Below are positions 4,401 to 33,563 of a stretch of DNA of 34,800 bases, piece by piece. The stretch is from the IMG/VR virus record IMGVR_UViG_3300017746_000059, positions 1-34,800 of that record, one strand, 5' to 3'. Source of the stretch: a virus. How positions within the stretch are numbered: the stretch's first letter is position 1; each line of letters starts with the position of its first letter. The notes beneath the pieces were generated by a model that saw nothing but the letters and a program-made list of their open reading frames with translations, ran no database searches and was not told the origin of the DNA. Position numbers and translations under genes: made by a program.

Positions 4401-6141
4401 CAAAATTACCTTTTTCAAATCTATCTTGATCACCAGCTGTAACCTTTAATAAACTATTCTTAGTATCATTACCACCAACAAACCTTTTTGAAGGATCTGC
4501 AATTGAAGTTAGTGGGTATGTTTGTAATTGATTAAATTGTTCAGGAAAGCTAATATCCATTTCAAACCCTATTCTATTAAATCGAGTACCACTAAATCTA
4601 GATTTTACATAAACCGTAGTATCATTGTAAGATGCAACAAAAAATCTATCATTTTCATTTATACCTTTATTAATAGCAGATGTTATAGATTGAGTAACTT
4701 CTTGTAAAGTACCGTTAGGATTAAAAAATCTTTGAAATGATTTACCTGGTATAGTTGCCATTGTACTATCTGCAAATACTGCACCTGTAAAATTAACCCC
4801 ATCATAAAAAGATATTTTAGAACCTTCTTCAACATTATCTAATACTTTAATATACATCTGGGCAACACCTGCTCTGTTTATAATACTTGCATTAGCAAAT
4901 GTATCAGGATCTTTATAACCAGTAAATAAAGATATATCTACTTTGGTATCAAATAGTCTTATTTGATCCTTACCCCATGTTGATCCTTTTTTAATTGTAT
5001 GAAAATCATCTTCTTTATCTTTAACATAAAAAATAGATTCTACTTCATCTACTCGAGTTGGAGTAGGTAATCCTGTAATAGTTTCAGTTTTTGCTGGATC
5101 TAAATATAGTAATATACCATTTTTATTTGTTAGCTCTAATGGTGTATTTAAAAACTGTGATACTTCAGTTATGTTTGTTATTACAGGTTGTTGAGTTTTT
5201 TCTGTTGATGTTCCTTTATAAAATGCTTCTCCTGATATATCAAACTTTCCCTCTTCAATATCATTAACATACATACCAAAATATCTATTAATAGAATAAT
5301 CATCAGCAGTAGGATCATCAAACAAAAATTCCATATTTAATAAGTTAGCTAAGATAATACCATTATTCTGAAACCCTTGTGTAAATAGATACTCATCTTG
5401 CATAATAGTTGAATCTTTAACAACCATATCTTTATACGCAAAATTACCTGAACTAGTAAATCCTCCACTTTTATATGATATTCCATTCCATAATATTGGC
5501 TCGTCTTTTCTCCAAGTCATATTAAGTGGAACCTCTGGAAAATTTTCTTGATTTCTATAATTTCTAATATAAGAACCTAGGGCAGTTCCTTCAGTCAAAT
5601 CAAATGTTTTAATTGCAGTACAATTCTCTAAAACATTTTTATTAAAATCAACTGATGTTTGTGCTGATGCAGTATTGTTGTTCTCAGTTGCAGATCTAAA
5701 ATTATTTACAGCTGCTGGATTATCTAATCTAAAAATTACAAAATAGTTTGGAATCTGTTCATTTAACCATAACGGAGCAAGAGTACCTAAGCTTTGTGGA
5801 TAGCTTTCAGACGCCACGGATCTAGTACCTGCACAATAAAACATTTCATATTGATTACCATATTTGGAAAGAACGGCGGTATCCTCATATTCTTGAAATA
5901 TTTCATATGCAGATTCAATAGGATATTTACCAAAATCAAAAAATCTAAAAACATCCTGATCATAGGTACTAGTACCATCAACCTTAAATGCTTTAAATTT
6001 TTGTGAAGATAGTCTTGTATTTGCACTAAAAGATTCTAAGTAAATATCTGTGCCGTCGGACACAACCTTTACATTAGCAGTCAATTTAGGATTAGTTCTA
6101 ACTAAACTGTATGATGCTTTATCGAATAAGTTTTCAGCCAT
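1414..6141 (-). CDS. Very large phage structural protein, function unassigned
   Basis: A 1575-residue protein, the largest complete gene in the window. I do not recognise a named family. It has no signal peptide or membrane segment and is rich in aromatic residues, Asn, Ser and Thr, as expected of a beta-rich virion protein. It starts MAENLFDKASYSLVRTNPKL. An aromatic-rich segment (PLWLNEQIPNYFVIFRLDNP) lies about 125-145 residues in, and a Lys/Arg-rich stretch (RAVKKKPSAP) lies near residue 1435. It sits at the end of the baseplate block between a 1304-aa structural protein and a fibre-like gene, so a peripheral baseplate, wedge-tip or fibre-attachment role is inferred from position. The start at 6141 is supported by an AATATATAA motif 16 bases upstream and a 45-base gap to the previous stop. 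Virion assignment is fairly sure; exact role is not. Confidence 0.85.
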   Translation of the reverse strand: MAENLFDKASYSLVRTNPKLTANVKVVSDGTDIYLESFSANTRLSSQKFKAFKVDGTSTYDQDVFRFFDFGKYPIESAYEIFQEYEDTAVLSKYGNQYEMFYCAGTRSVASESYPQSLGTLAPLWLNEQIPNYFVIFRLDNPAAVNNFRSATENNNTASAQTSVDFNKNVLENCTAIKTFDLTEGTALGSYIRNYRNQENFPEVPLNMTWRKDEPILWNGISYKSGGFTSSGNFAYKDMVVKDSTIMQDEYLFTQGFQNNGIILANLLNMEFLFDDPTADDYSINRYFGMYVNDIEEGKFDISGEAFYKGTSTEKTQQPVITNITEVSQFLNTPLELTNKNGILLYLDPAKTETITGLPTPTRVDEVESIFYVKDKEDDFHTIKKGSTWGKDQIRLFDTKVDISLFTGYKDPDTFANASIINRAGVAQMYIKVLDNVEEGSKISFYDGVNFTGAVFADSTMATIPGKSFQRFFNPNGTLQEVTQSITSAINKGINENDRFFVASYNDTTVYVKSRFSGTRFNRIGFEMDISFPEQFNQLQTYPLTSIADPSKRFVGGNDTKNSLLKVTAGDQDRFEKGNFVQTTGGFAEIGDWVPYTDEPIYDGLGQIIGYTDINKYVIITCDNNQIMVTRSNQVALYSDYKPSFGRFSFFEVKDFDFDFYSTLYSQEGELDFEFAEYNELVANAVKPYSTAPPFSDYSGISKNPNIRNFYDNGGFYNLIGLLNDAEEQNPDDEYIKSEYIRLEENFLTSQASTSRIAPYINKWAWVNGGKDVRNHPYRLDVNEAFGLNNFAPSKYDKTQESSGYTHEWYYLSEFPEYFTQDAIKSSWSYIDKAPTDNIEANVATGQAFVPGTFQNVNKDFFNDYFIIQKFTTGGITEIDRQLRYGRLNGGNEKNFAETFLRGVRVIAKPKAIGSQKPNFDARSLSYVQDGSLNEYRFSVILVPNLANKPELEIKFIKNEKWKTIVMLISIEYNVNCINGGNKSIIDRTSLYSLNSNFSTNSDCSPRVSSGQYLYEQTELSGAFSLTQSSIDSSGNYIIKGQPNVNGIPTNFVNDIRILEDGTFGQIKFAISGNFYVVDGIIDVIDSNTFRATTFTQNGFTMTAPSSNPGNNPLRAATYSIANGGYNQFTNRLTDVSFGEIFDAVNEGSPSIIYETILEDGSQLRNTDGTLAQTFSIELRAQADILKSIYVGVLPDPAKPTTFNLTDVVGYDLSLQKTPRITPIARHAGYYEPYALSLLSFRDPYQNLDFENVTGGASSTGSALIPDTAYKIKVMELCKYKNSQFNSSDENFGQIQNFFYHKVNEEDPSSILELSRESAFPSLYPLINEIGIDYRDFYLFSSNWEPSYFTKSIDKSQIQSVIGTRSMFERKSFFGSKYLKVPETIVLETFKPDPFIKAAIRQPSLIKGTFMHQDQASVTVNKRIIRSEGVRQVRAVKKKPSAPVETFYLFNEKRLIEYLFPSIKQEFQKYINPLFGWGNLETLDDDVEQYIRENILKLYKIDKIEFYSLASRTKAGSDYTTAELTNAEKVNNGLTINDNIASKTLNTNPFDLKLIYNKRTGFSESYGFSVTIVKK
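1472..1480 (-). promoter_or_regulatory. Intragenic AATATATAA copy, possible upstream promoter of the fibre gene
   Basis: Minus-strand AATATATAA inside the 3' end of the 1575-aa gene, 68 bases before the ATG at 1403. The only exact copy I found inside a gene; it could drive the collagen-containing fibre-like gene or be chance. Confidence 0.3.
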
Positions 6142-6157
6142 TTATCTTTCACTTTTT

Positions 6158-6166
6158 TTATATATT
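6158..6166 (-). promoter_or_regulatory. AATATATAA promoter-like motif
   Basis: Minus-strand AATATATAA, 16 bases before the ATG of the 1575-aa gene, followed by AAAAAGTG. One of the repeated leader motifs of this window. Confidence 0.55.
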
Positions 6167-6186
6167 CACTAAAAGACATGGTTAAA

Positions 6187-9100
6187 TTATAAGTTAGCTT
6201 GCCCAATGAAAGTTTGGCTTCCACCGCCTGAACCACCACCGCCACCGCTTCTTCTACGGGATACGCTAGTTTGTGATAATGACGGTCTTAATCCTGCAAC
6301 AACTTTCTCTAAATCATTTAATCCTTTAGTAACAGTTGCTTTAGGGAATACGTCTAAAGTTAATCTGTCAGATCTATATTTTGCAGAAAATTCAATATCA
6401 AATTGTACAACCTCAGAATTATTAGGTAATAAATCAAAACCTATTCTTTTTGAATAAGTAAGATTAACAGTAGATCCAGTAGAATCTCCTCCAACATTTC
6501 CTAATCCACTACCAGAAACTGTACCAAAATAATCAGTCATTCTATATTGAAATACTAACGGAACACTAACAGAGTTCTGTTGTCCAAATTGTACAACTTC
6601 TCTCGACTGTATAGAATCACCATCTACTTGAATATTTAAATGATTATCCGCAGATAGAAATAAATAAGAACCACAGGTTTCTTTACCTAAAGTATATTGA
6701 TCAAATCCATCAAACGAAGTTTTAGCATTTCTAGAATAACCGCCAGTAATATAACCCGCAGCCGTAGTATCCCATAAATTAGCTAATGCTACACTGCTTA
6801 ATGAAGGGCTAGCCTCTAATGATTGCCCGCTATCAAAAGGAACTGTTAATTGATTTACTCCACCAGATCCTGTTGCCAAATTATATAAATCAGTAACATT
6901 TTCATTTAAATAAATTGACTGCTGCTTTCCGTAAGGCTCATCAATTCTGAGTGGAGCAAATTTTGATTGTCTAAATAAAACCGCACCTGTACCATTTCCT
7001 GAAGATGTACAATCTAAACCAGTTAGCGGTAAAGCTGGTACAGTTGCTGGTAAAGTATTAATATCTCCGGTGAGAGATTCATAAGCATTTTTATATGCAG
7101 CATAATTTATTAAAAATGGATGTGCAATTGAAACTTGTACAACATCATCATTAGTAGGATATGCAGCAGAAGTTGTTGGCAAACCTGAAGGTAAAAAACC
7201 ACCTCCCCAAATAAATTCAGTAGTAGGAGACGCGCCACCAGTATTACCTGGTGCATTATAGAAGTTTTCTAACGTATCTAAATTAAAAGTATAATTACTG
7301 CTTGGATTAATATAACTATAAAAATCACCCTCAGCAGACACATCTGAAAATCTACTATAAATAAATTGGTTTTTATTTTGGGTAGATTGAAATGGTGGTA
7401 TAGAGACCATTTGTCCATATTGTGTACTTGCAGTAACATCAGGATTAGTTAAAATAATAGGAGTTAAATCATATTTTCTAACAGTGTTATAATCATTATC
7501 ATCTGATCTAAAGGTTGCTCTATCGTTAGATTGATTAGCTTGGCTATTATCCAACCATGAATATGTTGCTGGTAAAATAAGAGAGCCGTTTATAAGAGAA
7601 CCAACACCCGGCGCACCAGTAGCACTATAGCCTGCAGGATTCTCAGATTGTTTTACCATCCTACTACGATTACCAGTAATCCTAGCTAATAATTGTAATG
7701 CAGTCTGTGATTTATTTTCAATATTAATAAAATAAGTTTTAGATACAACAGCTCCCCTAGGATCGTCTAAGCTTTTAACTTCTTGTGCATAAAAACCTGC
7801 AAATATTTTAGTAGTAGAATTCCTTCTTAAATTAAATGTATTACCAGTATCATCTACTAATGTAGTATTTAGTTCACCCTGTGCACTGCTTAAGATTTCT
7901 GAAAATAAATCTAATTGATTTTGCATTTCGTTTAATTTAGTAAATAAATCTATAGGTGTTTGATTTTCTGATAAAAACCCAGATGCAATTACAGGTGATG
8001 AATGCGCATAATAAGTTTCATTAGCAGTAAATGAACTACTTAAGTGAGTAGGTAATCCAATAGATTCCAGATTTTCATTTAATGCAACTAATGCTAAGTC
8101 TTCTTGGTTTTGTGCTAGGATCGATTCAATAGCACTATCAGAACTTAAGTCTGCCGGAAACTCTACTCTTATAGCAGTACTATATTCACTTTCTAATGGA
8201 TTAGATGGCCACCCAGCTTCAGAAATAGATTTAACTTGTATTTCCACCTGCTCGCCTTTTCTAATTGGAATATCTAATTGATTTATATTTACTGAACTAG
8301 CATTATCATCATCTATTGGAGTCCATTCATATAAACCAGTTATAGAATTTTTTGTTCTAGGTCTTACTACACTATCCACAATTACATAATTAGAAAATGC
8401 CCCTTGGCTTGTTCCACTTCCGTCGGTATATGTAAATTGATCTACTGCATTTGCAGCACCATCAGCAGAAAGATATCTATAGCGATATTGAAATTTTATT
8501 ATATCCTGTACACCTGTTTCGGGTGCAGATTTTTCTTGGGGCATCGCCCAGAATCCTCTTACTCTATATTTAGGAGTTATACTACTTACTGAATTATCTG
8601 AAGCAAAAGAATTAATTTCAGTTACAACAGATGCATATAATTTTGCCTGTGAAGCCCTTTCAGTAATTAATCCTTGTAATGCATTCTTATCAGCATCTCT
8701 CTCAACTTCAGTTGTATAATTCGTTGTTTGTATTTTAGTTCTACTTTGGCTAATAGATACATCTAATTCTGTTAGTGTAGACTGAATAGTATTTTTTTGG
8801 TTATTTAAATCTTTAAGTTGAACTATAGCATCTGAATTACTTACTTGTCCATTAATTAAAGATACTGTAAAATCATCAGGAGATAATACTGGAGCATTAG
8901 GTATTAAACCTTCTCTACTCGTAGGCATCTTATCCTGTGCAAATGATAAAAGATATCTACCAAAGTCAACAGCATTTTGTTGATAATAATCTGCTAATGT
9001 TTGTTCAGTTCCTGCAGAATTAATTGTTGTTAAATTATTTGTATAAAAACCACTACCCGGCGACCAATTAACTGCAGGTATTTTAGAATCAGGATCAATA

Positions 9101-10101
9101 GGTTTAATAAATGTTACACACCTTTCATTAAAACCAACAGTAACATCTACTTCTAAATTATCACTTAATGAAGATCCTATCTTTAAAACATCTGAACCAA
9201 TGCTAATAGTTCTTTGCCCTTCTTGTAATCTTACTATTACCGAATTAGTACTTGTGTCAATTTGTGATACAGTGTATCTAGTATCAATTGGTGTTGACAC
9301 AACCTCTAAACTATCACCAACTTTTAATTGAACAGTATCCGCAAAATCAGCTTCGGAATCTGTATAAAATATCTTATTAAGTTTATATAATTTTTGAACA
9401 GTTGTTTGCTCTACACCATTAACAGTTTCAGTAACGCTTTCATCTCCTATTCTCATTACACTGAATTTACCTGAATACCTTTTGTCTCTTGGTGGTAAAT
9501 CTACTACAGCTTCATCTAAAACGTAAGAAATATTTTTTTCTACTATTTCTTGTAAGAATGTATTATAATCAATTGCTGCATTTCCATTATATTGAGATTC
9601 AAAGAAATTAATTTTACTTTGAGAATTGGTATCTAAAATATATCTTTGTATAATTGCTCTTTCAGTATCAATCGGCGCTTGCCCTGTAATATCAAATGCT
9701 ACATATAGTAAAGGATTGATTAATTCTTCAAAAAACCAATTAGGCTTAATGTCAAATTCACTAATAGAATTTATAGAAGTTAAATCCTGTGCCTCTACTG
9801 GTAATTTTGCTAAAACTAATTTCCTAAATGTACCGTCTGCTAATCTTATTGAACTATTACCATCATTAAAATTAGTAAGTGTATTTATATTAGTATTTAG
9901 TCTATCAACTGAATTCTTAAGAAAACCAAAACTAGGAATAGTAAGCCTAGAATTTGTCCCATCATTATTCTGTATATTAACTGTTACTGAATCGCGACTT
10001 GAGGTAATAGCTTGATTGACTTTCTCAAAGCTTTCCAATGAATTATTAAAAAGTCTAAGTAACTCCGGTAAGAATGTTTGTAGTGAATTATTTTCAGCCA
10101 T
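6187..10101 (-). CDS. Large phage structural protein with coiled coil and Gly-rich C-terminus
   Basis: A 1304-residue protein beginning MAENNSLQTFLPELLRLFNN. The N-terminal part is helical then mixed. A likely coiled coil spans about residues 415-500 (DLNNQKNTIQSTLTELDVSI and following). A fibronectin-III-like or Ig-like stretch sits around 540-650, where GEQVEIQVKSISEAGWP is typical of such modules in phage proteins. The tail of the protein is striking: RRRSGGGGGSGGGS about 15-25 residues before the end, then SQTFIGQANL, a flexible linker with a short terminal peptide. No enzyme motif seen. Its place between the 704-aa and 1575-aa proteins, downstream of the wedge genes, suggests a peripheral baseplate or fibre-linking protein, perhaps occupying the place of T4 gp10-like components; that link is positional only. 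The TAAATATAAAAAGT element upstream supports the start. Confidence 0.85.
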   Translation of the reverse strand: MAENNSLQTFLPELLRLFNNSLESFEKVNQAITSSRDSVTVNIQNNDGTNSRLTIPSFGFLKNSVDRLNTNINTLTNFNDGNSSIRLADGTFRKLVLAKLPVEAQDLTSINSISEFDIKPNWFFEELINPLLYVAFDITGQAPIDTERAIIQRYILDTNSQSKINFFESQYNGNAAIDYNTFLQEIVEKNISYVLDEAVVDLPPRDKRYSGKFSVMRIGDESVTETVNGVEQTTVQKLYKLNKIFYTDSEADFADTVQLKVGDSLEVVSTPIDTRYTVSQIDTSTNSVIVRLQEGQRTISIGSDVLKIGSSLSDNLEVDVTVGFNERCVTFIKPIDPDSKIPAVNWSPGSGFYTNNLTTINSAGTEQTLADYYQQNAVDFGRYLLSFAQDKMPTSREGLIPNAPVLSPDDFTVSLINGQVSNSDAIVQLKDLNNQKNTIQSTLTELDVSISQSRTKIQTTNYTTEVERDADKNALQGLITERASQAKLYASVVTEINSFASDNSVSSITPKYRVRGFWAMPQEKSAPETGVQDIIKFQYRYRYLSADGAANAVDQFTYTDGSGTSQGAFSNYVIVDSVVRPRTKNSITGLYEWTPIDDDNASSVNINQLDIPIRKGEQVEIQVKSISEAGWPSNPLESEYSTAIRVEFPADLSSDSAIESILAQNQEDLALVALNENLESIGLPTHLSSSFTANETYYAHSSPVIASGFLSENQTPIDLFTKLNEMQNQLDLFSEILSSAQGELNTTLVDDTGNTFNLRRNSTTKIFAGFYAQEVKSLDDPRGAVVSKTYFINIENKSQTALQLLARITGNRSRMVKQSENPAGYSATGAPGVGSLINGSLILPATYSWLDNSQANQSNDRATFRSDDNDYNTVRKYDLTPIILTNPDVTASTQYGQMVSIPPFQSTQNKNQFIYSRFSDVSAEGDFYSYINPSSNYTFNLDTLENFYNAPGNTGGASPTTEFIWGGGFLPSGLPTTSAAYPTNDDVVQVSIAHPFLINYAAYKNAYESLTGDINTLPATVPALPLTGLDCTSSGNGTGAVLFRQSKFAPLRIDEPYGKQQSIYLNENVTDLYNLATGSGGVNQLTVPFDSGQSLEASPSLSSVALANLWDTTAAGYITGGYSRNAKTSFDGFDQYTLGKETCGSYLFLSADNHLNIQVDGDSIQSREVVQFGQQNSVSVPLVFQYRMTDYFGTVSGSGLGNVGGDSTGSTVNLTYSKRIGFDLLPNNSEVVQFDIEFSAKYRSDRLTLDVFPKATVTKGLNDLEKVVAGLRPSLSQTSVSRRRSGGGGGSGGGSQTFIGQANL

Positions 10102-17373: not shown

Positions 17374-19230
17374 TTATTCTCCTTTTAATGCTTTTAAAGT
17401 AGGGTTATCTACTAACCTTCCTGTATTTAATCCTGCTGAATTTGCACCAGTGGCTATTGTAGTACCCCTGTTTCTTTTAGCATTATTATATTTTTCTTGT
17501 TGTATTTTATTATATAGATTATTTGCAATTGCTTCTTTATAGAAAACATTAAGAGAACTAATCTTATTAGCTTCTGGTATAGGTTCATAATAAGTACCAC
17601 TTCTATCTTTCCATCCACCACGGATAATTGCTATATCATTATTTTCAATAATAACATCCCCAAAACTATCTAACCCTAATTGTGGATCTTCACCTTTCTT
17701 TAATACAATTTTCTTATTCTCTATTAAAACTCTTTGGTCGGTTACAGGATCTGTTCCATAAACCGGAATAAAATAAAAACCATCTCTTATAGCCTTTTCA
17801 TTAACTTCTGATATAAAGAATACATTTACAGAATCAATACCTTCAACATTCTCAATTATTGAAATAATATCAGATCTTGGAATCCTATCTCTTCTATTTA
17901 CATTTAAGAAATATTCATCTAAATTTTTTCTTATTTCAATTCTTATAGAGTCTTTATCATAATTATCAAACCATCTTACTACAATATTAAGTGCATATCT
18001 TTTAATAATTGGATCTACTATTCGAGTTTCAGCAGTAACTACTTGTCTACCGCTACTATTTAATATTTCATAAGTCATTTCCTTTTCCTGCGTTGTCATT
18101 GTAAATTCAACCTCAGGAATACTAAAATAATCTAAATCGCTTGTTAATTTTTTCTTTACATCAGGAATTAAGAAAAGATAAATAATATTATCGTCATCCA
18201 AGTATTCATCGTTCTTAGTATTATAAGCATCTATAAATGACCAAAAATCATACTTACTTAAATAATAAATATAATTATTAGGATTAGCTAATACAAATGA
18301 ATTACTTGCATAAGGCGCGATTAATCGAGTAAACTGAGGATCTTCAGAATCAGAACCAAACATTGGATTTCTTGTAATATTCATTGCAAGTATTTCATTT
18401 AAATCTACTTGCTCACCAGATGTATCTGTTCCTGGGTCTATAAATTTTATATCTAATTGCTTTCCTCCAATATTACCAGCAGCTCCTCGAGTCTTTACAT
18501 AGGTAACTCTAATTTTAGATCCTAGTGGCGGTGGAAACCCAAATTGATTATTCCCAAAAAATACACTTAACCCACCATTAACACTTGACTTAACCATAAC
18601 TGCTTTATCACCTCTATTCATATCATAAATAGACTCTTCCTTTTTCCAAAGTTGCCCATCTACATAAACATCACATAAATATTGATCTGTAGGTTCTTTA
18701 GTACTTAAGTTATAACTTTGTAAAGGATTACCAGAGCCTGTAAAACTCTGTTCATCTTTTTCACCTTGAATAACTTCTACATTAACAAAAGCTTTTGTAG
18801 TTTTATCTAATCTAATAAAATCACTATTAAATCTTAAAAAATATTGCAATCCGTTCTGTCCAATTTGAAATTTTACACCGTTCATAATTTGTACATAATC
18901 ACCATTAAGAAGGGTAGATGCACTTGTGTTTAATCGTAATCCAATTATACCTCTTGCAGATATACCTCTTGTAGGATCATGTCCAGTTAATCTAGACAAA
19001 CCATATATAGATTCAATATTCCTTGCCCGAGATATATTCATCTCTGTAGCAACAGCCTCTATATAAAAGAAAATCATTTCACCTAAGTTAGAAACTACTG
19101 TTAATATTTGTCCAAAGGGTGAAGCAGGAGTAAATACCTCAACGGCCTGATCATAGGTACGCTGAAGATAATCAAATGAATCTTGGAATAACTCAGTAGC
19201 TTTTAATCTTGTTTTACTAAAAAATGACAT
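17374..19230 (-). CDS. Baseplate wedge protein, gp6/J-like
   Basis: A 618-residue protein of the baseplate J / T4 gp6 type, which forms the dimeric ring that ties the wedges together in contractile tails. The N-terminal helical region contains ELFQDSFDYLQRTYDQAVEV and a region near 65-95 (SRARNIESIYGLSRLTGHDP) typical of the J-like N-terminal part. The clearest signature lies at 218-253: GGLSVFFGNNQFGFPPPLGS followed by IRVTYVKTRGAAGN, which fits the family's FGdG-fG-P-G-i-v-Y-G-GN pattern. The C-terminal part carries DYDKDSIRIEIRKNL-type and RRDRIPRSDIISIIENVEGI segments, also usual for this family. It follows the gp25-like gene by 13 bases, the usual W-J order of contractile tails. The length is close to that of T4 gp6. 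Leader without Shine-Dalgarno. Confidence 0.92.
   Translation of the reverse strand: MSFFSKTRLKATELFQDSFDYLQRTYDQAVEVFTPASPFGQILTVVSNLGEMIFFYIEAVATEMNISRARNIESIYGLSRLTGHDPTRGISARGIIGLRLNTSASTLLNGDYVQIMNGVKFQIGQNGLQYFLRFNSDFIRLDKTTKAFVNVEVIQGEKDEQSFTGSGNPLQSYNLSTKEPTDQYLCDVYVDGQLWKKEESIYDMNRGDKAVMVKSSVNGGLSVFFGNNQFGFPPPLGSKIRVTYVKTRGAAGNIGGKQLDIKFIDPGTDTSGEQVDLNEILAMNITRNPMFGSDSEDPQFTRLIAPYASNSFVLANPNNYIYYLSKYDFWSFIDAYNTKNDEYLDDDNIIYLFLIPDVKKKLTSDLDYFSIPEVEFTMTTQEKEMTYEILNSSGRQVVTAETRIVDPIIKRYALNIVVRWFDNYDKDSIRIEIRKNLDEYFLNVNRRDRIPRSDIISIIENVEGIDSVNVFFISEVNEKAIRDGFYFIPVYGTDPVTDQRVLIENKKIVLKKGEDPQLGLDSFGDVIIENNDIAIIRGGWKDRSGTYYEPIPEANKISSLNVFYKEAIANNLYNKIQQEKYNNAKRNRGTTIATGANSAGLNTGRLVDNPTLKALKGE
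17379..17383 (-). promoter_or_regulatory. Strong Shine-Dalgarno AGGAG
   Basis: Minus-strand AAGGAGAA inside the last codons of the gp6-like gene, AGGAG 6 bases before the ATG of the 89-aa gene. It decides that start and shows coupling. Confidence 0.65.
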
Positions 19231-19243
19231 TTACATTATTATT

Positions 19244-19606
19244 TTAAAAAAGAGCACCTATAACTCTTTGTTCATTTACAAATATATCAACCAAACAACC
19301 ATTTCTTTCCAATGTAGAAAAGAAACTAACTTTTGTATTTATATCAAAACCGGCAACGTCTGGTAAACAGTATGCAGTAATTTGGCTATTAATATTATTT
19401 TGTATAGTGTTTTCATTTAATACTAAAGAAAAAACCAATTCATCTAAATTACAACCTATACCAGGCGCGCCTAGTACTTCACCTTTTCTAGTAAATAAAC
19501 AATTTTCAATCTTAATAATTAATTGAGATAACGTATCACTTACTTCCAAAGTAGCATCATTAAACTTCGGGGCTTCAGCATCTCTACTATAAATATCTTT
19601 AATCAT
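19244..19606 (-). CDS. Baseplate wedge protein, gp25/W-like
   Basis: A 120-residue protein matching the GPW/gp25 family, a small lysozyme-fold-like wedge piece that contacts the sheath and gp6 and helps start sheath polymerisation. The central signature is at about 39-60: TRKGEVLGAPGIGCNLDELV, where family members have a G-R/x-P-G-G-x-L-x-x-L-F pattern, followed by a helix (ENTIQNNINSQITAYCLPDV) and a terminal strand pair (GCLVDIFVN). The length is right for the family (T4 gp25 is about 132 aa). It lies immediately before the gp6-like gene, as W before J. The leader holds an AATATATAA motif 20 bases from ATG, so a promoter may begin the wedge unit here. Confidence 0.9.
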   Translation of the reverse strand: MIKDIYSRDAEAPKFNDATLEVSDTLSQLIIKIENCLFTRKGEVLGAPGIGCNLDELVFSLVLNENTIQNNINSQITAYCLPDVAGFDINTKVSFFSTLERNGCLVDIFVNEQRVIGALF

Positions 19607-19666: not shown

Positions 19667-20530
19667 TTATCCTGTGAAAAAATAATCAACACCCTCATCT
19701 CCTTTTATTTCTTCAACTACTCTATCTACGTCTTCTCTACCTTCTGAAGATATCATATCATAATTTATAGTAATATTACCTGGAAGATTAAAAGAAAAAG
19801 TTCCTAAAATTCTAGATAGTTGAATTTTGGCCATTCCAATAACATATCTTTGAAAAGCTTCATCCTCAAATAGAGCACAATCAGGAATAGTTGAAAAGAT
19901 TTCAAATATAACAGCTCTCTTAGGTAACTCTCCTTGGAATCTAAATTTCTTAGTTAATCTATTAAATGTATATGATATTTGTGGTAATAAAACCTGTCTT
20001 GCATTGTCCATGAATAATGAATTAACAACATAGTACATTAAATTTTCACTTCCTATACCAGCACCATAAACATCATCATAAATAAATTTATCAATTGAAA
20101 AGTCAACATCGTCTGCATTAAAACTCATTTGACCAAACCCACCATCTTCTCCACTGAATCCACCAATTTCAAATACATCATTAACCGAATATACTCGAGA
20201 TGGCATCTGAACAATACCCCTAGGATTAGCGAGTTGATTTTTATTTGTTATAGTTTCGTTAGATTGACCAGTTCCATGCGGTACACCTTGTTTAAAGCTA
20301 GTTTTTTGTAATGCACCGGCTGGTAAAGCAATATACATTTGCTCTACACTATCTTCATAGATTTTATAAAAATATTTTTTTGCTCTTTGTATAATGTTTG
20401 CTAATTCCTTCTTAGGAACTGTGAATGGAATTTGGCATGCTATTGTTAATTCATCATTAATTAACTTGATTAGTGCATCTAAACATGCAGCTTCATCTGG
20501 ATCATTACAATAAGTATTCTTATTAGCCAT
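19667..20530 (-). CDS. Phage structural protein in wedge cluster, unassigned
   Basis: A 287-residue protein. The N-terminus (CNDPDEAACLDALIKLINDE) is helical, followed by a KKYFYKIYEDSVEQMYIALP segment. The C-terminal third is aromatic and rich in features that look conserved: DEAFQRYVIGMAKIQLSRIL then GTFSFNLPGNITINYDMIS, and an acidic end (EEIKGDEGVDYFF). Helix plus beta hairpin in this order is familiar from virion proteins of large phages, and I suspect a neck or baseplate part, but no T4 counterpart is recognised. It lies between the amidoligase-like gene (6 bases after it) and the gp25-like gene (60-base gap). Start supported by AATATAAAATAAG immediately upstream, though this overlaps the end of the previous gene. 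Confidence 0.8.
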   Translation of the reverse strand: MANKNTYCNDPDEAACLDALIKLINDELTIACQIPFTVPKKELANIIQRAKKYFYKIYEDSVEQMYIALPAGALQKTSFKQGVPHGTGQSNETITNKNQLANPRGIVQMPSRVYSVNDVFEIGGFSGEDGGFGQMSFNADDVDFSIDKFIYDDVYGAGIGSENLMYYVVNSLFMDNARQVLLPQISYTFNRLTKKFRFQGELPKRAVIFEIFSTIPDCALFEDEAFQRYVIGMAKIQLSRILGTFSFNLPGNITINYDMISSEGREDVDRVVEEIKGDEGVDYFFTG

Positions 20531-20536
20531 CTTATT

Positions 20537-21829
20537 TTATATTTTTTCTATTTCAATTATTTCGGTATTTTCAAACGTAGCCAATTTAGTAGCTCTACCT
20601 TTTCTAAAAATACCACCTTCCATTTTTCCACTAAATACTCCCCTACCACCAAAGACATAAGAATCTTTACATATTACATTTTTACTAACATAAGAATTAT
20701 CTATCTTACAGTCAGCAGCATCGGTTGCACCAAATAAGTTACTTTCAACTAATGATGAATTTATGAGCTCCGAACTAAAAATATCACAATTTAAAATGTT
20801 ACCTTGAATTTTAGAGTCTACAATATCAATTCCTTTTATTTCAAAACATCTCATTAGTTCTGCATTCTTTAATTGCATTCTACCAGTATCAGCATCGTAG
20901 TTAATTAAACCTTCTTTTAACCCAGCTAAAGTTAAAAGCTTAAAAATCTCTTCTCTCATTTTAGGATAAAATGTTTCTACAATTTGATCATATGTTTTAA
21001 GATCAACCATTAATTTTATCTTTGGAAATTTTTTCTTAAATGCTTGATAATCTTTATAAGATTCAACTATACCACTGTGCTTTTCTAAAACAGCATCTAA
21101 TTGTTTAAGATCTCCATCGGTATATTTAGGATACATTAAAGTTTCATATAATGATATAACAAAATGTTCCGTTAAATTCATTATTGTATTATACTTCTTT
21201 TCATAATCCTTTCCACCAAGATATCTAAATTCAATATAATTCTTAGGTAACTTAGAAAAGTTTACACCATAATACTTTTCCGATACAAACATATAATTTT
21301 TCCATGAAATTCTTTCAGGAGATGGTTGAGTCATTCCACTTAAAGGAACAATAAATTTTATTGACTTAGCATAAACAGAATCTTTTCTATTAGGAAATGC
21401 TTCATATATTTTATTCTCATCAAAATTTAATACAAACTTACCAATATCCAAATTTGATATATTTGTAGGAACTCCTAATTTCTTTCCATCAAAAGCTATA
21501 TTAATATGAATAGAACATCTTTCATTAGTAGATCCATTTTCACGAATCCATTTTAAAGTTTTTGCAATAATAAGCTTTGATTCAACGAACGGCATTGGCC
21601 CAGTGACCAATTCAATCATTCCAGTTCCTCCGGAATTATCAGGCTCTAATTTAAATGTTTCACTACTAGGAGTAAAATCACTATGAGCCGTTTCCTCTAT
21701 TTGTATTCTTTTATTTAAAGCATTAGAAAGACTTCTTTTAACCTCGTCTAGCCCTTCATTAGCAAAGAATTCAAATTCTAATCCAATCTTGGATGCGTAT
21801 ATAGCATTTAATTGTTCGTTAGTGTACAT
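20537..21829 (-). CDS. Amidoligase-like (COOH-NH2 ligase) protein with beta-helix-like tail
   Basis: A 430-residue protein. Residues 15-205 carry the motifs of the amidoligase family with a glutamine synthetase-like fold: IGLEFEFF (15-22), a KLEPD segment at about 60-64, MIELVTGPM (71-79), CSIHINI (105-111) and YIEFRYLGG (199-206). In this family the Glu and His residues bind metal and nucleotide, and a carboxyl group is activated and joined to an amine. The middle (210-330) is helical. From about 333 on, short repeats such as KGIDIVDSKIQGNILNCDIF suggest a pentapeptide-like right-handed beta-helix, which would be an unusual fusion. It lies in the baseplate block after the S1-repeat gene. The leader has AATATATAA 16 bases before ATG and an AGGAA Shine-Dalgarno 4 bases away. 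Activity and target are unknown; could act on a virion or host protein. Confidence 0.8.
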   Translation of the reverse strand: MYTNEQLNAIYASKIGLEFEFFANEGLDEVKRSLSNALNKRIQIEETAHSDFTPSSETFKLEPDNSGGTGMIELVTGPMPFVESKLIIAKTLKWIRENGSTNERCSIHINIAFDGKKLGVPTNISNLDIGKFVLNFDENKIYEAFPNRKDSVYAKSIKFIVPLSGMTQPSPERISWKNYMFVSEKYYGVNFSKLPKNYIEFRYLGGKDYEKKYNTIMNLTEHFVISLYETLMYPKYTDGDLKQLDAVLEKHSGIVESYKDYQAFKKKFPKIKLMVDLKTYDQIVETFYPKMREEIFKLLTLAGLKEGLINYDADTGRMQLKNAELMRCFEIKGIDIVDSKIQGNILNCDIFSSELINSSLVESNLFGATDAADCKIDNSYVSKNVICKDSYVFGGRGVFSGKMEGGIFRKGRATKLATFENTEIIEIEKI

Positions 21830-23095: not shown

Positions 23096-23368
23096 TTAGG
23101 TGATTGCACCAGTACCAGTACCTGCTTGAGCTACTGCTGATCCTGCAGTAACCACGGCAGTAGTTACTAGTCCAGTCTTTATGAAAGCATTTATTGCTTT
23201 ACTTGCTTCTGCTGCAAATGCTTTTCCTCCAGCATCTCTTATGGCTGCTGCTGATGTAGTAACTGCTACATCAGAAGTATTCTTTGCTGCTTTGTCATCC
23301 ATAGCTTTCATTCCTTTCTCAAAGGCTTTTTCTAATGCTAATTGTAATGCTGGTACTGCTAGTGGCAT
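23096..23368 (-). CDS. Small Ala-rich protein after the spike gene, unassigned
   Basis: A 90-residue protein, starting MPLAVPALQLALEKAFEKGM. The first 60 residues are likely helical and Ala/Lys-rich (AAIRDAGGKAFAAEASKAIN). The C-terminus is apolar and Gly/Ala/Thr-rich (TGLVTTAVVTAGSAVAQAGT), which might insert into or line a structure, but it is too polar to call a membrane helix. It directly follows the gp5-like spike gene. A spike-tip, internal virion or tube-plug role is a guess from position; the sequence is not a PAAR protein (no PAAR motif seen). The leader is 31 bases and contains an AATATATAA motif and a 13-base tandem repeat. Confidence 0.7.
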   Translation of the reverse strand: MPLAVPALQLALEKAFEKGMKAMDDKAAKNTSDVAVTTSAAAIRDAGGKAFAAEASKAINAFIKTGLVTTAVVTAGSAVAQAGTGTGAIT

Positions 23369-23393: not shown

Positions 23394-23400
23394 ATATATT
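23392..23400 (-). promoter_or_regulatory. AATATATAA promoter-like motif
   Basis: Minus-strand AATATATAA, 23 bases before the ATG of the 90-aa gene. It is preceded by TATA, giving TATAAATATATAA, which contains the exact T4 late promoter string TATAAATA. Confidence 0.5.
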
Positions 23401-24296
23401 TATAAAGTTTTTACTTGCTTTTGGCTTAATTCAGCAGGCGTCATTGGTTTTATAGGTGGGCTTGTTGGTACTCCTTTATTTCCAATATGATTATGACTAT
23501 TAAATAATGACATAAATTTGTTCCCTAATACTAATGGTTCACTTGCACCTTCTCCTAATTCTATTGATGATGCATGATTAACAATAGTATTTTTACAATT
23601 AATTATTGCATCTTCACAATTTATTTCTGTATTGGCTCCACTGTTAATTGTAACTTGAGCAGAATGTGTAAAAGTTAAATTACCATCATTAAGCATTACA
23701 ATAGTATCACCGTTAGCATTTATTATTTCAACAGAATTATCAGGTTTTATATTTACTGTAGTTGGGCCTTCTGTTGTGGTATAATCCATCATTAGTCCTT
23801 TTTCTTCTGTAAAGAAAACTTTAATATGTTCACCTTCTCTTTCATTTGTTACCTCAGATACCCCATCCTCTAATGTACCTGTCAAACCAAATGCAGTATC
23901 ATAAATTAATACATGAGAATTCTGATAGGATGGTTCTACTTCAGCTTTTGTTTCATCTGAAGGATAAATATTTTCATGATAAATAGGCTGATAAAAATTT
24001 CCATTATCAAAAGTAAGTCTAACGATAGAACCTAACTTAGGAATTTCAAATTTACCACTTCCTGTATTACTTCCGCCATACATTAATTGATGAGGTCTTG
24101 ACCACGGCAATGCAGCAGTTGGAATCTTGTATGCACTTTCAGGATCTTCAGGATCTACGCGATCATCCATTTTACCATATACTCTTATCTTACACCTACC
24201 TTCAAAGATATCATCATTAGTATCTTCAACAATACCAACCCACTGTGTAGATCTTAAATCATCAGAATTAAAATTTTTTGGATTAACCTTTCCCAT
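23400..24296 (-). CDS. Baseplate spike protein, gp5/gpV-like, without lysozyme domain
   Basis: A 298-residue protein. Residues about 15-110 look like the OB-fold at the base of gp5/gpV/VgrG spikes: QWVGIVEDTNDDIFEGRCKI, then LPWSRPHQLMYGG and KLGSIVRLTFDNGNFYQPIY, a pattern I associate with the family (G-x-V-x-x-x-x-D-x-x-x-x-G-R-x-x-V). Residues about 155-250 are short repeating strands (TINSGANTEINCEDAIINCK) expected of the triple-stranded beta-helix needle. The C-terminus has SHNHIGNKGVPTSPP (267-281), a widely shared end motif of such spikes. T4 gp5 carries a lysozyme domain between OB-fold and helix; none is visible here, so cell-wall digestion is probably done by another protein or not needed. 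Overlaps the previous stop by one base (TAATG), so it is coupled with the 478-aa gene. Confidence 0.9.
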   Translation of the reverse strand: MGKVNPKNFNSDDLRSTQWVGIVEDTNDDIFEGRCKIRVYGKMDDRVDPEDPESAYKIPTAALPWSRPHQLMYGGSNTGSGKFEIPKLGSIVRLTFDNGNFYQPIYHENIYPSDETKAEVEPSYQNSHVLIYDTAFGLTGTLEDGVSEVTNEREGEHIKVFFTEEKGLMMDYTTTEGPTTVNIKPDNSVEIINANGDTIVMLNDGNLTFTHSAQVTINSGANTEINCEDAIINCKNTIVNHASSIELGEGASEPLVLGNKFMSLFNSHNHIGNKGVPTSPPIKPMTPAELSQKQVKTL

Positions 24297-27242: not shown

Positions 27243-27788
27243 TTATGATTCAGTATTTGTACTATTTCTTGTCGGTAGATTTGCCCCTAATTTAATTTTA
27301 CCTCCTTCATATACTTTAGCATCTTGTCCTTGTTGTAGCATATTTGGTGGTATAGGAGACTTTACCCCATTCTTTTTTGTTTTAGCTTTTTGTATTAGTC
27401 TTTGAATTCTAGACTGGTCTTGTTCACTTTGCCTTCCAGTATCAACATATTGAGCCAATGTAGCGCTTGGTCTTTCTGCAGGATTCGGTCTTTTATAAAC
27501 TAAATCTAATTGTTCTAATTTAGGTATTGCTAAAATATCACCTTCTTGTATAGTGAATGGATTAAAAATATTATTCACTATACATATTGCATCTAAATAA
27601 GCATCTGTCCCAAAGTATATTTGAGAAATTTTATCAACTCTACCAACTTGATCTTGCTGAACATAATGTAAAGCCTTAACTCCTAATTCTCTTTTATACT
27701 TAAAAGAAGGCGCAGTTAGATCAAAATATTGTTGGCCTGTTTTTTCATCGGACAATTTATTTTTTAGTGTAAGAGATTTAATATTCAT
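27243..27788 (-). CDS. Baseplate wedge protein gp53-like with LysM-like domain
   Basis: A 181-residue protein. Residues about 48-92 have a LysM-like layout: VGRVDKISQIYFGTDAYLDA then VNNIFNPFTIQEGDILAIPK, which fits the D-x-I-s-x-x-y-f-G...N...P...i-x-x-G-d-x-L-x-I-P pattern of LysM and of gp53-type wedge proteins. In T4 gp53 contributes to wedge contacts in the baseplate. The C-terminal 80 residues are basic, Gln/Lys-rich and probably extended (QSRIQRLIQKAKTKKNGVKS). The gene runs into the gp27-like gene with 3 bases between stop and start. Alternative: a generic LysM tail protein such as gpX. Leader has ATAAAAGAATTAGATAAAA without a Shine-Dalgarno sequence. Confidence 0.75.
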   Translation of the reverse strand: MNIKSLTLKNKLSDEKTGQQYFDLTAPSFKYKRELGVKALHYVQQDQVGRVDKISQIYFGTDAYLDAICIVNNIFNPFTIQEGDILAIPKLEQLDLVYKRPNPAERPSATLAQYVDTGRQSEQDQSRIQRLIQKAKTKKNGVKSPIPPNMLQQGQDAKVYEGGKIKLGANLPTRNSTNTES

Positions 27789-27803: not shown

Positions 27804-29615
27804 TTATGAGTCAATTAACATTTGTGTTAAATTACTAACATATGCACCTGTTGTTGCATCTTGGCTAGCACTACCATTTTTAAGAGATGAAACTTCAGAA
27901 CTATTGTTTTTAATATTAGAGATTAATTCATTATTAAATGAATCAGCTGATGGTTGATTTGTAGATGGCTGTAAACTACTTGTTCCTACATCTGGTATAA
28001 CACCATACATTGAAACTTCTTTACCAGCTAAATTAAGTACATCTTCAACACCTTGCGCTGATGCATATATTCTACCTTGGCCTGCATTAAACATATTTTC
28101 TATATCTCCTTTATCTCTTGGCTTACCGTGCTTTAAATCAATTTCAAATTTAGCCTCCATAGGAAAATCATCATAACCTAAACCTTGCCCTAATGTCATA
28201 GTAGCATTATCACAAATCATATTCCCCATCATTACAATCGGATTTAATGGATTACCGACAGTTAAATGCCAGTCACCAGTAGGCTCTCCACTAATAAAAG
28301 CTTTTGTCGCAGATGTACCTGTAGCACCACCTACTTGCTTACCTAAAAAGTTACCAAGCATATTACCTAATAAATTTTTACCAACTTTCTTTAAACCATC
28401 AACGATACTATTAGCATCAAAGTTTCCATTAGAATCTCCAAATAGACCTTTCATACCAGTCTCTACATCATTAACTACACTTCCCATATAACCAGAAAAA
28501 TTACCATCTCTTAACATACTAATGTCTCCAAATTGGCTAGCAACAAATCCACTACTTCCATAATATCTATGTCCTCCTCCAAAAAATTGAGCATTATTAG
28601 TAGTCATTGTTAACATATTACTTATAATATCAATCATTGCTATTTTAGGATTAACATAACTTAATGATTTAAGTTCATATTCAAATGTTAGCTTCATATC
28701 ATTTGTAAACTTTAATCCACGTTTACGAACCATAGTACTGTCTACAACATTTACGGGTCCTAATACAAAATTAGCATAAGTAGTTCCTAACCTATCAGCA
28801 GTAGAACTACCTGCTCCGTTTTGAGCTCTAAACTTAGAACCTGCAGTTTGTCCTTTCGCCGAGTCAGCAACTGCTCTACCTATTCCTCCAATCTTATTAT
28901 AAAAAGGTTGTTGTGTGTAACCACCACCTGATGAACCAGTATCTACTGATTCAAAATCAGCTGTTATTGCTTCATAGTTTAAACCAAAAGACATTTTTAA
29001 AAGTTCTTCTAAACTATTACCAGCAGTTTCTCCTAAATATGTTATTGCCGTTACACCAGCAACTTGTGTGGCATCGGCTACATTTCCTTCTTTATCCTTA
29101 ACTTTATATTGATAAATGTTATCACTAATTGCAGTTGGAAACCTCCTAAGTGTAATTAAATGATTTACTGGAATTTTTTTGTAATATTTAGAATATAAAA
29201 AATCTGATGGCTTATAACCTATTTTAGGATAGTGTTCATCAAAGTAATTTATGATCTTTGGCAATGAAACATTAGTAGCATTCTGTCCACCCATTAATTC
29301 ATTTTCAGGTTTGTCAATATACTTGTCTTGTTGAGCTGTTGATAAATTACCATAAAATCCTTGGAAATTAAACAAAGCATACTTATTAGCAATAGAACTT
29401 GCAATTGGTGATGTAGACATACCATTAGCCACGGTTGCTGCATCAGCTAAGGCAGAGTTAACATAAAATTTTTGACTGTATAAGTCTGAAACCCCTTTAG
29501 CAAAACCTGTGGCCTGCCCACCAAAAGGACCAACTAAATTAGAATTAGCTGTATTCTCTTGGGGATACATTGCATCATTTAAGTCGCTTATTGCATTACT
29601 AAAATTAAAAGCCAT
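27804..29615 (-). CDS. Phage tail structural protein, possible tube-end protein
   Basis: A 603-residue protein. Two blocks look conserved: residues about 145-170 (KKIPVNHLITLRRFPTAISD) and 445-520 (GDWHLTVGNPLNPIVMMGNM, then LGYDDFPMEAKFEIDLKHGK, then FNAGQGRIYAS). The strand pattern in the second block is like that of tail tube or tube-cap domains. The centre is Gly/Ser-rich (about 225-275), and a short glycine-patterned helix (KKVGKNLLGNMLGNFLGKQV) lies near 409-428. It opens the hub region ahead of the gp53-like gene. I infer a tube/baseplate junction protein, possibly one of two related tube-cap proteins together with the 478-aa product. The AATATATAA motif lies 17 bases before ATG, supporting the start. 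Confidence 0.82.
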   Translation of the reverse strand: MAFNFSNAISDLNDAMYPQENTANSNLVGPFGGQATGFAKGVSDLYSQKFYVNSALADAATVANGMSTSPIASSIANKYALFNFQGFYGNLSTAQQDKYIDKPENELMGGQNATNVSLPKIINYFDEHYPKIGYKPSDFLYSKYYKKIPVNHLITLRRFPTAISDNIYQYKVKDKEGNVADATQVAGVTAITYLGETAGNSLEELLKMSFGLNYEAITADFESVDTGSSGGGYTQQPFYNKIGGIGRAVADSAKGQTAGSKFRAQNGAGSSTADRLGTTYANFVLGPVNVVDSTMVRKRGLKFTNDMKLTFEYELKSLSYVNPKIAMIDIISNMLTMTTNNAQFFGGGHRYYGSSGFVASQFGDISMLRDGNFSGYMGSVVNDVETGMKGLFGDSNGNFDANSIVDGLKKVGKNLLGNMLGNFLGKQVGGATGTSATKAFISGEPTGDWHLTVGNPLNPIVMMGNMICDNATMTLGQGLGYDDFPMEAKFEIDLKHGKPRDKGDIENMFNAGQGRIYASAQGVEDVLNLAGKEVSMYGVIPDVGTSSLQPSTNQPSADSFNNELISNIKNNSSEVSSLKNGSASQDATTGAYVSNLTQMLIDS

Positions 29616-32240: not shown

Positions 32241-33563
32241 TTAAACTCCCCCACCGTCATTAAGTGTTCCCCATTTAGTAGCAAGACTCGTGCGTGCAAT
32301 TGCTACTTGATTACCTGGTGATGTTATTGAATACTGACTATTACCAAAATCTACAGTACCACCTGGCCAAGATGGGAAACTATAAGCAGCATCCCATGCA
32401 ATTAATAACGCATCATAATTAGCAGTAGATAATTTAAAAGTAGTAGATGGGCCAGTCATTGGTGAGGTACCAACTGTGCTTACATTCCATGCATTTACAT
32501 TCCAATTTCCTATAGGTTGATCAAACGCAGTAGCATTGTCAAACATATCTCTCATATCCACAACGCCTGAAGTATCCCAACCGCTAATAGCCTGATTAAA
32601 ATTAGGACAATCCTTAAACATTTCTCGCATAGTAGTAACTGATGATGTATCCCAACTTGATATATTGTCATTAAAGATTGCACAGCCGTCAAACATAAAA
32701 TCCATCCTTTGAACACCTGATGTATCCCAAGAATTCATAGATCCAGAATTGTTATTATCAAAGTTGACACAATTCCTAAACATGGATTTCATAGAGAAAA
32801 TAGAAGATACCTTCGCACCTATATTAGTAAACACCCTAGGATTCATAGCAGTGCAATTATTAAACGTTCTTTCGAATTGTGTAACATTACTTACATCCCA
32901 ATTACTCAAATCGATAGGTCCACCCCCATTAGATCCAGATTGGAGTTTAGTACAACCTGAAAACATTATTTGCATTGCACTCAATCTACTTACATCCCAA
33001 TTTGCAATATTATTAATTGTAGTAAGACCACTACAACTACTAAATGTTGCTCTTCCTCCACGTGTATTAAAATTAATATTATTAGGATGTCCAGGAAACC
33101 AAGGAGTATCAGGGGCTGATATTACTGATAAGTTTGTACAACTTCTAAACGTTTGCCCGGCTGAAGATTGCTGCCCACCTGTTAGTTTTAAGTCACCCCA
33201 CCTTGTTATCTCTAATAATTTGTTACCGTCAGCTTTACCAGTCGCTTGTGCCAGCTCCCAGAAATTAAATCCTGCAATATTACCTTCTGCTGAAATTGTA
33301 TATGTACCAGGCCCACCTGTAAATGTATGCAAACATTCAGTAGCATAATTACTAGAATTAACATTAGAAGTTGTACCATCACCCCAGTTTATAGTAAAAT
33401 TAATGGTATAACCTAAATCATCTGTACCATTTGAAATGGGAAAATAAAATTGTCCCGTTCCAGATGGTGTTGTAAAACCATATTGAGTCTGAATGGCACT
33501 ATTAACTTTCATTTCAAACTTACCTTTACCTGAACCTCGCCTACCTGATAAAATCTTTCTCAT
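32241..33563 (-). CDS. BspA-like (DUF285) repeat protein with PKD-like N-terminal domain
   Basis: A 440-residue protein. After a basic N-terminus (RKILSGRRGSGKGKFEMKVN) comes a PKD-like strand set at about 50-92 (INWGDGTTSNVNSS ... FTGGPGTYTISAEG). Residues about 188-358 contain repeats of the BspA / DUF285 type, with the units NWDVSRLSAMQIMFSGCTKL, NWDVSNVTQFERTFNNCTAM, SWDTSGVQRMDFMFDGCAIF, SWDTSSVTTMREMFKDCPNF and GWDTSGVVDMRDMFDNATAF, plus divergent copies. These leucine-rich-like repeats occur in secreted surface and adhesion proteins of bacteria and protists. The C-terminal 60 residues hold a NYDALLIAWDA segment that often closes such arrays in marine bacteria. No clear signal peptide, so a virion or cytosolic role is likely. 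It follows the collagen fibre gene after 4 bases and may be part of the receptor-binding apparatus. Confidence 0.9.
   Translation of the reverse strand: MRKILSGRRGSGKGKFEMKVNSAIQTQYGFTTPSGTGQFYFPISNGTDDLGYTINFTINWGDGTTSNVNSSNYATECLHTFTGGPGTYTISAEGNIAGFNFWELAQATGKADGNKLLEITRWGDLKLTGGQQSSAGQTFRSCTNLSVISAPDTPWFPGHPNNINFNTRGGRATFSSCSGLTTINNIANWDVSRLSAMQIMFSGCTKLQSGSNGGGPIDLSNWDVSNVTQFERTFNNCTAMNPRVFTNIGAKVSSIFSMKSMFRNCVNFDNNNSGSMNSWDTSGVQRMDFMFDGCAIFNDNISSWDTSSVTTMREMFKDCPNFNQAISGWDTSGVVDMRDMFDNATAFDQPIGNWNVNAWNVSTVGTSPMTGPSTTFKLSTANYDALLIAWDAAYSFPSWPGGTVDFGNSQYSITSPGNQVAIARTSLATKWGTLNDGGGV
32487..33002 (-). repeat. DUF285/BspA repeat region of the adhesin-like gene
   Basis: Approximate span, within the gene at 32241-33563, encoding seven WDxS-type units (near residues 189, 222, 253 variant, 279, 304, 329, 354) of about 25 residues each. 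DNA copies have diverged, so the repeats are recognised at protein level only. Confidence 0.7.

Follow-up and report, generated by a model that had tools for sequence, protein, structure and literature searches.

A predicted amidoligase-fold/beta-helix fusion protein encoded among the contractile-tail genes of large phages

The window analysed here is a 34.8-kb IMG/VR record, a genome fragment, and its long minus-strand open reading frames (ORFs) make up a contractile-tail module. One of them has an ATG start and encodes a 430 aa protein for which an amidoligase fold joined to a beta-helix is predicted. It belongs to a family of which 144 distinct complete proteins were compared. The gene and its neighbours are located as follows:

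17374-19230, minus strand: gp6-like baseplate wedge protein, 618 aa (phrog_219, 2.4e-27)
19244-19606, minus strand: gp25-like baseplate wedge protein, 120 aa (phrog_43, 0.0017, weak; conserved gene order)
19667-20530, minus strand: T4 gp13-like neck protein, 287 aa, 6 bases downstream of the amidoligase gene (phrog_211, head-tail adaptor, 4.6e-12)
20537-21829, minus strand: amidoligase-fold/beta-helix fusion protein, 430 aa
21870-23012, minus strand: S1-domain protein, 380 aa, directly upstream of the amidoligase gene (PF00575, 1e-21)
23096-23368, minus strand: small alanine-rich protein, 90 aa (relatives in 109 of 184 loci)
23400-24296, minus strand: gp5-like baseplate hub/spike protein, 298 aa (phrog_37871, 1.5e-13; phrog_430, 4.9e-12)
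27243-27788, minus strand: gp53-like baseplate wedge protein, 181 aa (phrog_7145, baseplate wedge, and phrog_15542, tail sheath, each matched by 10 of 14 members)
27804-29615, minus strand: 603 aa protein whose homolog adjoins the amidoligase gene in most megaphage-type loci

The sequence-only reading had described the ORF as lying among tail genes. This is borne out by the gp25-like, gp6-like, gp5-like spike, gp53-like wedge and gp13-like neck genes that surround it. The model of the gp13-like protein (modest pLDDT of 65.7) aligns with chain 9lu7_A of the T4 neck complex (VIA Z 12.5, rmsd 16.4). The gp53-like protein has weak PDB matches to chitin-binding proteins, which we take to be LysM proteins. 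PDB sequence searches with the gp6-like and gp13-like proteins returned nothing useful. The 603 aa protein of the window has no match in PHROGs, and the designed helical proteins found in its profile search were discarded as composition matches. At the slot between the spike and S1 genes, where the window encodes the 90 aa protein, non-matching proteins of 185-424 aa are found in L142, L183 and LR756500 (L178). Elsewhere in the window, proteins of 1575 and 1304 aa (1414-10101, minus strand) match phrog_31887 and phrog_29329, which have no annotated function, and are possibly parts of fibres or spikes. A 440 aa protein (32241-33563, minus strand) matches parts of function-less PHROGs up to 1857 positions long. 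The S1-like gene within the tail operon suggests that not every gene of this operon is structural. In huge phages, a lack of identifiable Shine-Dalgarno sequences has been connected with the putative S1 proteins they encode (PMC7162821).

Four motifs had been quoted as those of the glutamine synthetase-fold amidoligases: GLEFEFF (residues 16-22), MIELVTGPM (71-79), CSIHINI (105-111) and YIEFRYLGG (198-206). All of them are present in the 430 aa ORF. The top conserved columns of the family include G16, E18, E20, E73, G77, H108, N110, E200, R202, G205 and G206. Since residues of the quoted motifs rank among the best conserved columns, the motifs are not a product of chance. A chance ORF or motif is also ruled out by the size of the family and by dN/dS values of 0.087-0.144 between the window gene and seven intact relatives. 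A search against Amidoligase_2 (PF12224), which had been suggested as a check, gave a divided answer: The window protein scores 16.7 bits, below the gathering score of 22, whereas the family member L180 (26.9 bits) and the relative in Agrobacterium phage Atu_ph07 (30.2 bits) pass it. Ten of 46 family members match PF12224 at E <= 0.01 (best E 5.5e-6). Pentapeptide_4 is matched by 14 of the 46 at the same threshold (best E 5.4e-6), with 13.5-25.4 bits against a cut-off of 38 among the four matches listed. The window protein itself has no match to this Pfam family. In PHROGs, the nearest family is phrog_33777 (function not annotated), matched by 21 of 46 members. The window protein is thus a divergent stand-alone relative of the phage Amidoligase_2 proteins. 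With the family profile A1, 12 matches were obtained among PDB sequences, comprising pentapeptide, solenoid and unrelated proteins; none is glutamine synthetase-like. One PDB protein that appeared in this search, at E 0.49, is the anti-phage Hailong effector HalA. The corresponding NCBIfam model is weakly matched by 9 of 46 members via the beta-helix part (best E 5.2e-4), and a few members match NCBIfam Qnr models. These matches probably reflect shared repeat geometry and beta-helix likeness only.

An AlphaFold2 model was computed from a 46-sequence alignment (pLDDT 88.5, pTM 0.81), with values below 50 at residues 165-173 only. Foldseek placed glutamine synthetases (GS) at the top (8fbp_E, E 1.2e-4), at a low whole-chain TM score of 0.29. 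In VIA comparisons, model residues 1-235 align with glutamine synthetase 4bax_A over 186 residues (Z 10.5, rmsd 3.7), and the C-terminal part aligns with the beta-helices 2j8k and 5di5 over 111-113 residues (Z 10.0, rmsd 2.2-2.4). Unrelated proteins can reach best Z values of 7-8 with this tool, and repeat proteins up to about 13; both values are only moderately above this background. Among the matches listed for the BFVD viral models, 25 of 50 bear the name amidoligase. According to the model, the window protein is a GS-like core fused to a quadrilateral beta-helix. The two domains and the conserved motifs of the core map to the following positions:

20915-21829, minus strand: GS-like core, residues 1-305 (boundary approximate; VIA, Foldseek)
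20540-20881, minus strand: pentapeptide-type beta-helix, residues 317-430 (VIA; Pentapeptide_4 in relatives)
21770-21778, minus strand: ExE motif, E18-F19-E20 (E18 in 142 of 144 proteins, E20 in 144 of 144)
21596-21646, minus strand: EPDxSGG..GMIELVTGP motif, residues 62-78 (D64, S66 and E73 each in 142 of 144)
21494-21517, minus strand: SIHxN motif, residues 105-112 (H108 in 142, N110 in 141 of 144)
21212-21238, minus strand: YIEFRYLGG motif, residues 198-206 (E200 in 142, R202 in 144 of 144)

The predicted active-site set comprises 14 residues: E18, E20, D64, S66, E73, H108, N110, R148, K155, K158, Y186, N190, E200 and R202. It is complete in 140 of the 144 distinct proteins, including that of the window, down to about 30% identity. 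One of the four deviants differs at N110, one at K155 and K158, and two, L252 and L254, are decayed. We take this set to correspond to the GS metal ligands. The mapping rests on the fold and on the motifs of such enzymes, since profile comparisons of the family with E. coli GlnA and GshA yielded no usable sequence alignment. The GS-fold core and the pentapeptide-like tail claimed from the motifs are therefore both recovered in the model. The sequence-only reading would have been abandoned if the GS-like core or the Glu/His pocket were missing; in a comparison at the level of fold and conserved motifs, the core, a conserved Glu/His set and the beta-helix were found, and the claim survived. The amidoligase gene of L284 (3448-4759) falls into two overlapping ORFs, which reflects either a frameshift error or a decaying copy.

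The gene is part of a tight operon with the order S1-domain protein, amidoligase, gp13-like neck protein, gp25, gp6. The order S1 - amidoligase - gp13-like is found in 96 of 134 distinct loci, a set from which duplicates were removed by containment only, so that near-identical contigs remain. The other 38 loci comprise six that are cut at a contig end, the window's own locus, Atu_ph07 and 30 that are otherwise arranged; beyond the 96, six loci show the gp13-like side only. In 94 of the 96 loci, the gap between the amidoligase and gp13-like genes measures 1-9 bases (median 4), and in the remaining two -14 and 844. The S1-like gene lies at a median distance of 42 bases from the amidoligase gene (range 16-1266). 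When loci were selected by their gp6 gene instead, the amidoligase gene was found in all 136 testable loci (63 of 63 and 73 of 73 in the two queries), always directly before the gp13-like gene. This count includes the decayed lineage. It leaves aside 14 loci with fewer than 2,900 bases upstream and no amidoligase gene, while short loci with such a gene were scored as present. Query A overlaps the contigs found through the amidoligase, as do at least three of the 80 of query B (L181-L183). In the main clade, the place of the gene in the operon is fixed.

In IMG/VR, at least 177 loci (L001-L063, L071-L184) were identified by scanning with the window protein, the A1 profile and distantly related members, some contigs occurring twice; one of these scans covers the best 80 of 566 relatives. 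Relatives are also present in LR756500 (462 kb), LR756501 and LR756503 (735 kb), LR745206, LR756502 and LR756504 (634-642 kb) and, weakly, in Atu_ph07. Five genomes above 634 kb are reported as Mahaphages with Bacteroidetes hosts in the available part of the source (PMC7162821); they are presumably LR756501, LR756503, LR745206, LR756502 and LR756504. The family belongs to large phages known mostly from metagenomes. Among 84,980 bacterial and archaeal species genomes, at least three contigs match, all of them from metagenome-assembled genomes. This figure is a lower bound because the scan used two peptide patterns only. With so few bacterial and archaeal matches, the family looks mainly viral. 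The gp6-like and 603 aa proteins of the window are closest to those of LR756500, followed by other huge phages, Lak, PAU, Tenacibaculum, Flavobacterium and Chryseobacterium phages. Where a host is named for a relative, it is mostly a member of the Bacteroidota.

In megaphage-type loci, the amidoligase gene is divergent to the gene of the 603 aa protein and 0.5-2.6 kb away from it (24 of 134 loci); the gene order is otherwise reshuffled. There, the 603 aa gene precedes the gp53-like wedge gene. In L171, L172, L174, L175 and LR756504, a tail-module gene is found 0.5-3.2 kb from the amidoligase gene. LR756501 (735 kb) is an exception, with 9.8 kb between the amidoligase gene and the closest module gene recognised. 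Atu_ph07 is another: Within 9 kb of its amidoligase relative, no member of the window families is encoded, and the portal gene lies two genes away. This relative, AUZ94978, is gene product 196 (counted from the portal) and falls within CDS 170-215. According to the part of the report available, this region is one of three clusters that hold most of the proteins found in virions by mass spectrometry, a statement at cluster level (PMC6102473).

Phages with related tails can lack the gene. The family profile A2 found no amidoligase in PAU, pT24, PTm5, MA9V-2, MaF61, Lak-A2 and Lak-B1 (0 of 7), while it detected the protein in 8 of 8 records known to carry it. A DNA search with PF12224 was negative in the same seven cultured relatives. 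It also missed L180, which is matched in hmmscan, so that the claim of absence leans on the A2 profile and PF12224 adds little. For the Lak phages, whose ORFs break at in-frame stops, the absence rests on the A2 profile, which reads through stops. The gp6 homologs of Lak-A2 and Lak-B1 (L190, L191) fragment under the standard code, in agreement with the alternative coding reported for Lak phages in the portion of the source available (PMC8346664). Given the relatives with similar tails in which no amidoligase was found, such tails do not in general require the gene.

One lineage has lost most of the predicted active site and kept the gene. It comprises two distinct proteins, since that of L261 is identical to that of L254:

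L252, 3529-4812: decayed amidoligase-fold gene, intact ORF of 427 aa
L254, 3532-4815: decayed amidoligase-fold gene, intact ORF of 427 aa
L261, 3532-4815: decayed amidoligase-fold gene, intact ORF of 427 aa

E18, D64, S66, E73, H108, N110, N190 and E200 are missing in L252 and L254; E20, R148, K155, K158, Y186 and R202 are retained. The decayed gene occupies the same operon slot and has the same neighbours as its intact relatives. L252 and L254 differ at 52 synonymous and 9 non-synonymous sites, which corresponds to a dN/dS of 0.038 overall (0.042 in the core and 0.029 in the tail). No second amidoligase copy was found in the contigs of this lineage, which measure 161, 56 and 49 kb and may be fragments. 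The L254-type protein matches no Pfam family at E <= 0.1, PF12224 included. A gp6 tree places the decayed lineage, with moderate support (89/93), within others whose sites are intact. In this tree, the five outgroup rows do not form one side of a branch, the long-branch MaF61 fell inside and long branches were flagged. From the nested position, the loss of the active site looks secondary. We also considered that a co-conserved substrate gene had been lost in this lineage. This scenario was rejected, since the stretch examined still contains every neighbour, the gene of the 90 aa protein among them. The combination of a lost active site and strong purifying selection on the protein implies that it is retained for something beyond the usual catalysis. 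The family protein therefore probably does more than catalysis.

The explanation we favour, tentatively, is an ATP-dependent ligase that acts on a tail, neck or assembly protein and has, in addition, a separable non-catalytic role. The protein would be an amide-bond-forming enzyme of the GS-like amidoligase superfamily that is encoded in a late module and produced together with neck and baseplate proteins. It might act on one of these or on an assembly factor. Most likely, the enzyme would couple an amino acid or a peptide to a carboxylate, or it would cross-link two chains. The C-terminal pentapeptide beta-helix could anchor the ligase to its target or to the tail under construction. As the protein has persisted in at least one lineage despite the apparent decay of its catalytic part, a docking or structural role may be separable from catalysis. 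Enzymatic activity, late expression, class of substrate and docking are inferred for the family protein; the fold, its two domains, the conserved predicted catalytic residues, the place in the operon of the main clade, the missing cassette partners in eight relatives (see below) and the decayed lineage were computed. A particle target is favoured over a host or metabolic one by the linkage to tail genes across very different genome layouts, a pattern that LR756501 breaks. The gene neighbourhood does not prove the substrate. A stricter version, in which a tail- or neck-bound ATP-dependent ligase installs amide bonds, as residue tags or cross-links, on the tail during assembly and is purely structural in one lineage, is rather unlikely. 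Of the earlier proposal, the GS-like core, the conserved Glu/His set, the beta-helix and the fixed place in a structural module are supported, while peptide tagging or cross-linking of a baseplate or host protein, with the beta-helix as substrate binder, would be a possible function. The decayed lineage complicates a purely enzymatic view, as it points to at least one case in which catalysis can be dispensed with.

The decayed lineage is also the starting point of a rather unlikely alternative: GS fold and beta-helix might form a neck or baseplate component, a chaperone or an assembly scaffold in which catalysis is residual or lost. Consistent with this, L252, L254 and L261 have lost eight predicted residues, keep an intact gene at a dN/dS of 0.038 and have no second copy, their protein matches no Pfam family at E <= 0.1, and the gene is fixed in the tail operon. 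However, a structural part would not need the intact active-site sets seen in 140 of 144 proteins, and the decayed lineage is rare (2 distinct proteins) and nested among intact ones (89/93). The target could instead be a host protein, for instance a ribosomal or translation protein to which an amino acid is ligated. The beta-helix would then bind the host protein and the late operon would provide timing only. Gyrase is bound by pentapeptide helices such as those of MfpA, Qnr and AlbG. An S1-domain gene next door hints at translation-related genes in the operon, and host proteins have been proposed as targets of the ATP-grasp peptide ligases that jumbo phages encode (PMC7824862). Nevertheless, the gene is near tail-module genes in LR745206, LR756502 and LR756504, and in LR756502 the S1 homolog is far from it (348 kb versus 95 kb). 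A host-directed effector is rather unlikely.

The latter distance also bears on the idea of a RimK-like ligase: As RimK does with ribosomal protein S6, the enzyme would modify the phage S1-like protein encoded next to it, or ribosomes that carry this protein. The S1-like gene is located directly upstream in 96 of 134 loci, at the median of 42 bases given above, but the two genes are apart in LR756502 and in LR756501 (684 kb versus 241 kb), and no S1-specific feature indicates a ligation site. This reading is very unlikely. Even less probable is an auxiliary glutamine synthetase or a small-peptide or cell-wall ligase, as proposed for phiEco32 and for the cassette of the LUZ24/phi14:2 type. It could draw on the GS-like fold, on the joint occurrence of amidoligase, GATase and COOH-NH2 ligase genes in phi14:2, on the nine moraphages for which an 'AMG glutamine synthetase', possibly the window family or another gene, is listed in the available text (PMC12619734), and on the cell-wall or superinfection role suggested for such cassettes in the part of the source available (PMC10580990). 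Against it stand the missing N-terminal part of GS (alignments begin at GS residues 101-181), the absence of GATase_6 and COOH-NH2_lig from eight related records and the tie of the gene to a tail operon instead of metabolic genes.

If the tentatively favoured ligase acts on the particle, it would provide an ATP-driven covalent maturation step for a contractile phage tail. Independently of its substrate, a two-domain amidoligase occurs constantly in the neck-baseplate operon of a phage group that is common in IMG/VR. In several megaphages, though not in all, its gene is likewise close to tail genes. The natural lineage without the predicted active site offers a ready test of the dependence on catalysis.

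In the partial texts available, phage amidoligases have been treated as accessory metabolic or host-modifying genes (PMC7824862, PMC3890496, PMC10580990), and among titles and abstract openings of the literature no such protein in a tail operon is described. A known setting is a cassette. The early module of UFV-P2 is reported, in the part of the paper available, to contain a COOH-NH2 ligase motif, amidoligase, GATase and ATP-grasp genes (PMC3890496). In Cellulophaga phage phi14:2, gp038 shares the GS-like core motifs with the window family, although hhalign to the family is not significant (PF12224, 20.3 bits). Its gene follows those of GGCT, an ATP-grasp ligase, a COOH-NH2 ligase and GATase. 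The phi14:2 cassette is surrounded by replication genes, and the virion genes are on the other strand, whereas the window gene is part of a tail operon. The cassette partners GATase_6 (PF13522; controls 14 of 14) and COOH-NH2_lig (PF14395; positive control phi14:2) were found in none of eight large records of relatives of the window phage, two of which are IMG/VR records and maybe fragments. Membership in a cassette of the phi14:2/LUZ24 type was therefore rejected.

With GlnA, the window core has the fold of the catalytic domain in common (VIA Z up to 10.5), at 9-16% identity among the GS matches listed. It differs from GS by the additional beta-helix, and no sequence-profile alignment to E. 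coli GlnA was obtained. As alignments begin at model residue 1 or 2 and at GS residues 101-181, the N-terminal part of GS is missing in the window protein. A true glutamine synthetase was rejected, as the protein is without the N-terminal hundred or so GS residues. The 'glutamine synthetase' of the moraphages could be a true GS or the window family under another name. The C-terminal beta-helix resembles the pentapeptide protein NP275-NP276 (Z 10.0, rmsd 2.2), and AlbG and MfpA appear among the Foldseek matches. In contrast to these pentapeptide-repeat proteins, the helix of the window protein is a C-terminal domain on a ligase-like core. The Atu_ph07 relative AUZ94978 is like the family: The A2 profile aligns with it over 211 columns (probability 98%), and the alignment shares EPDxS...ELV, HINI and YIEFR..GG, while ExE is outside the alignment but visible in both sequences. 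Unlike in the window protein, the profile match is limited to positions 28-256, and the beta-helix is not covered. Both domains are present in the BFVD model A0A6J5PQ40 of an uncultured Caudovirales phage, which matches over the whole length (TM 0.87/0.86, 24% identity) and is a distant unannotated member of the family.
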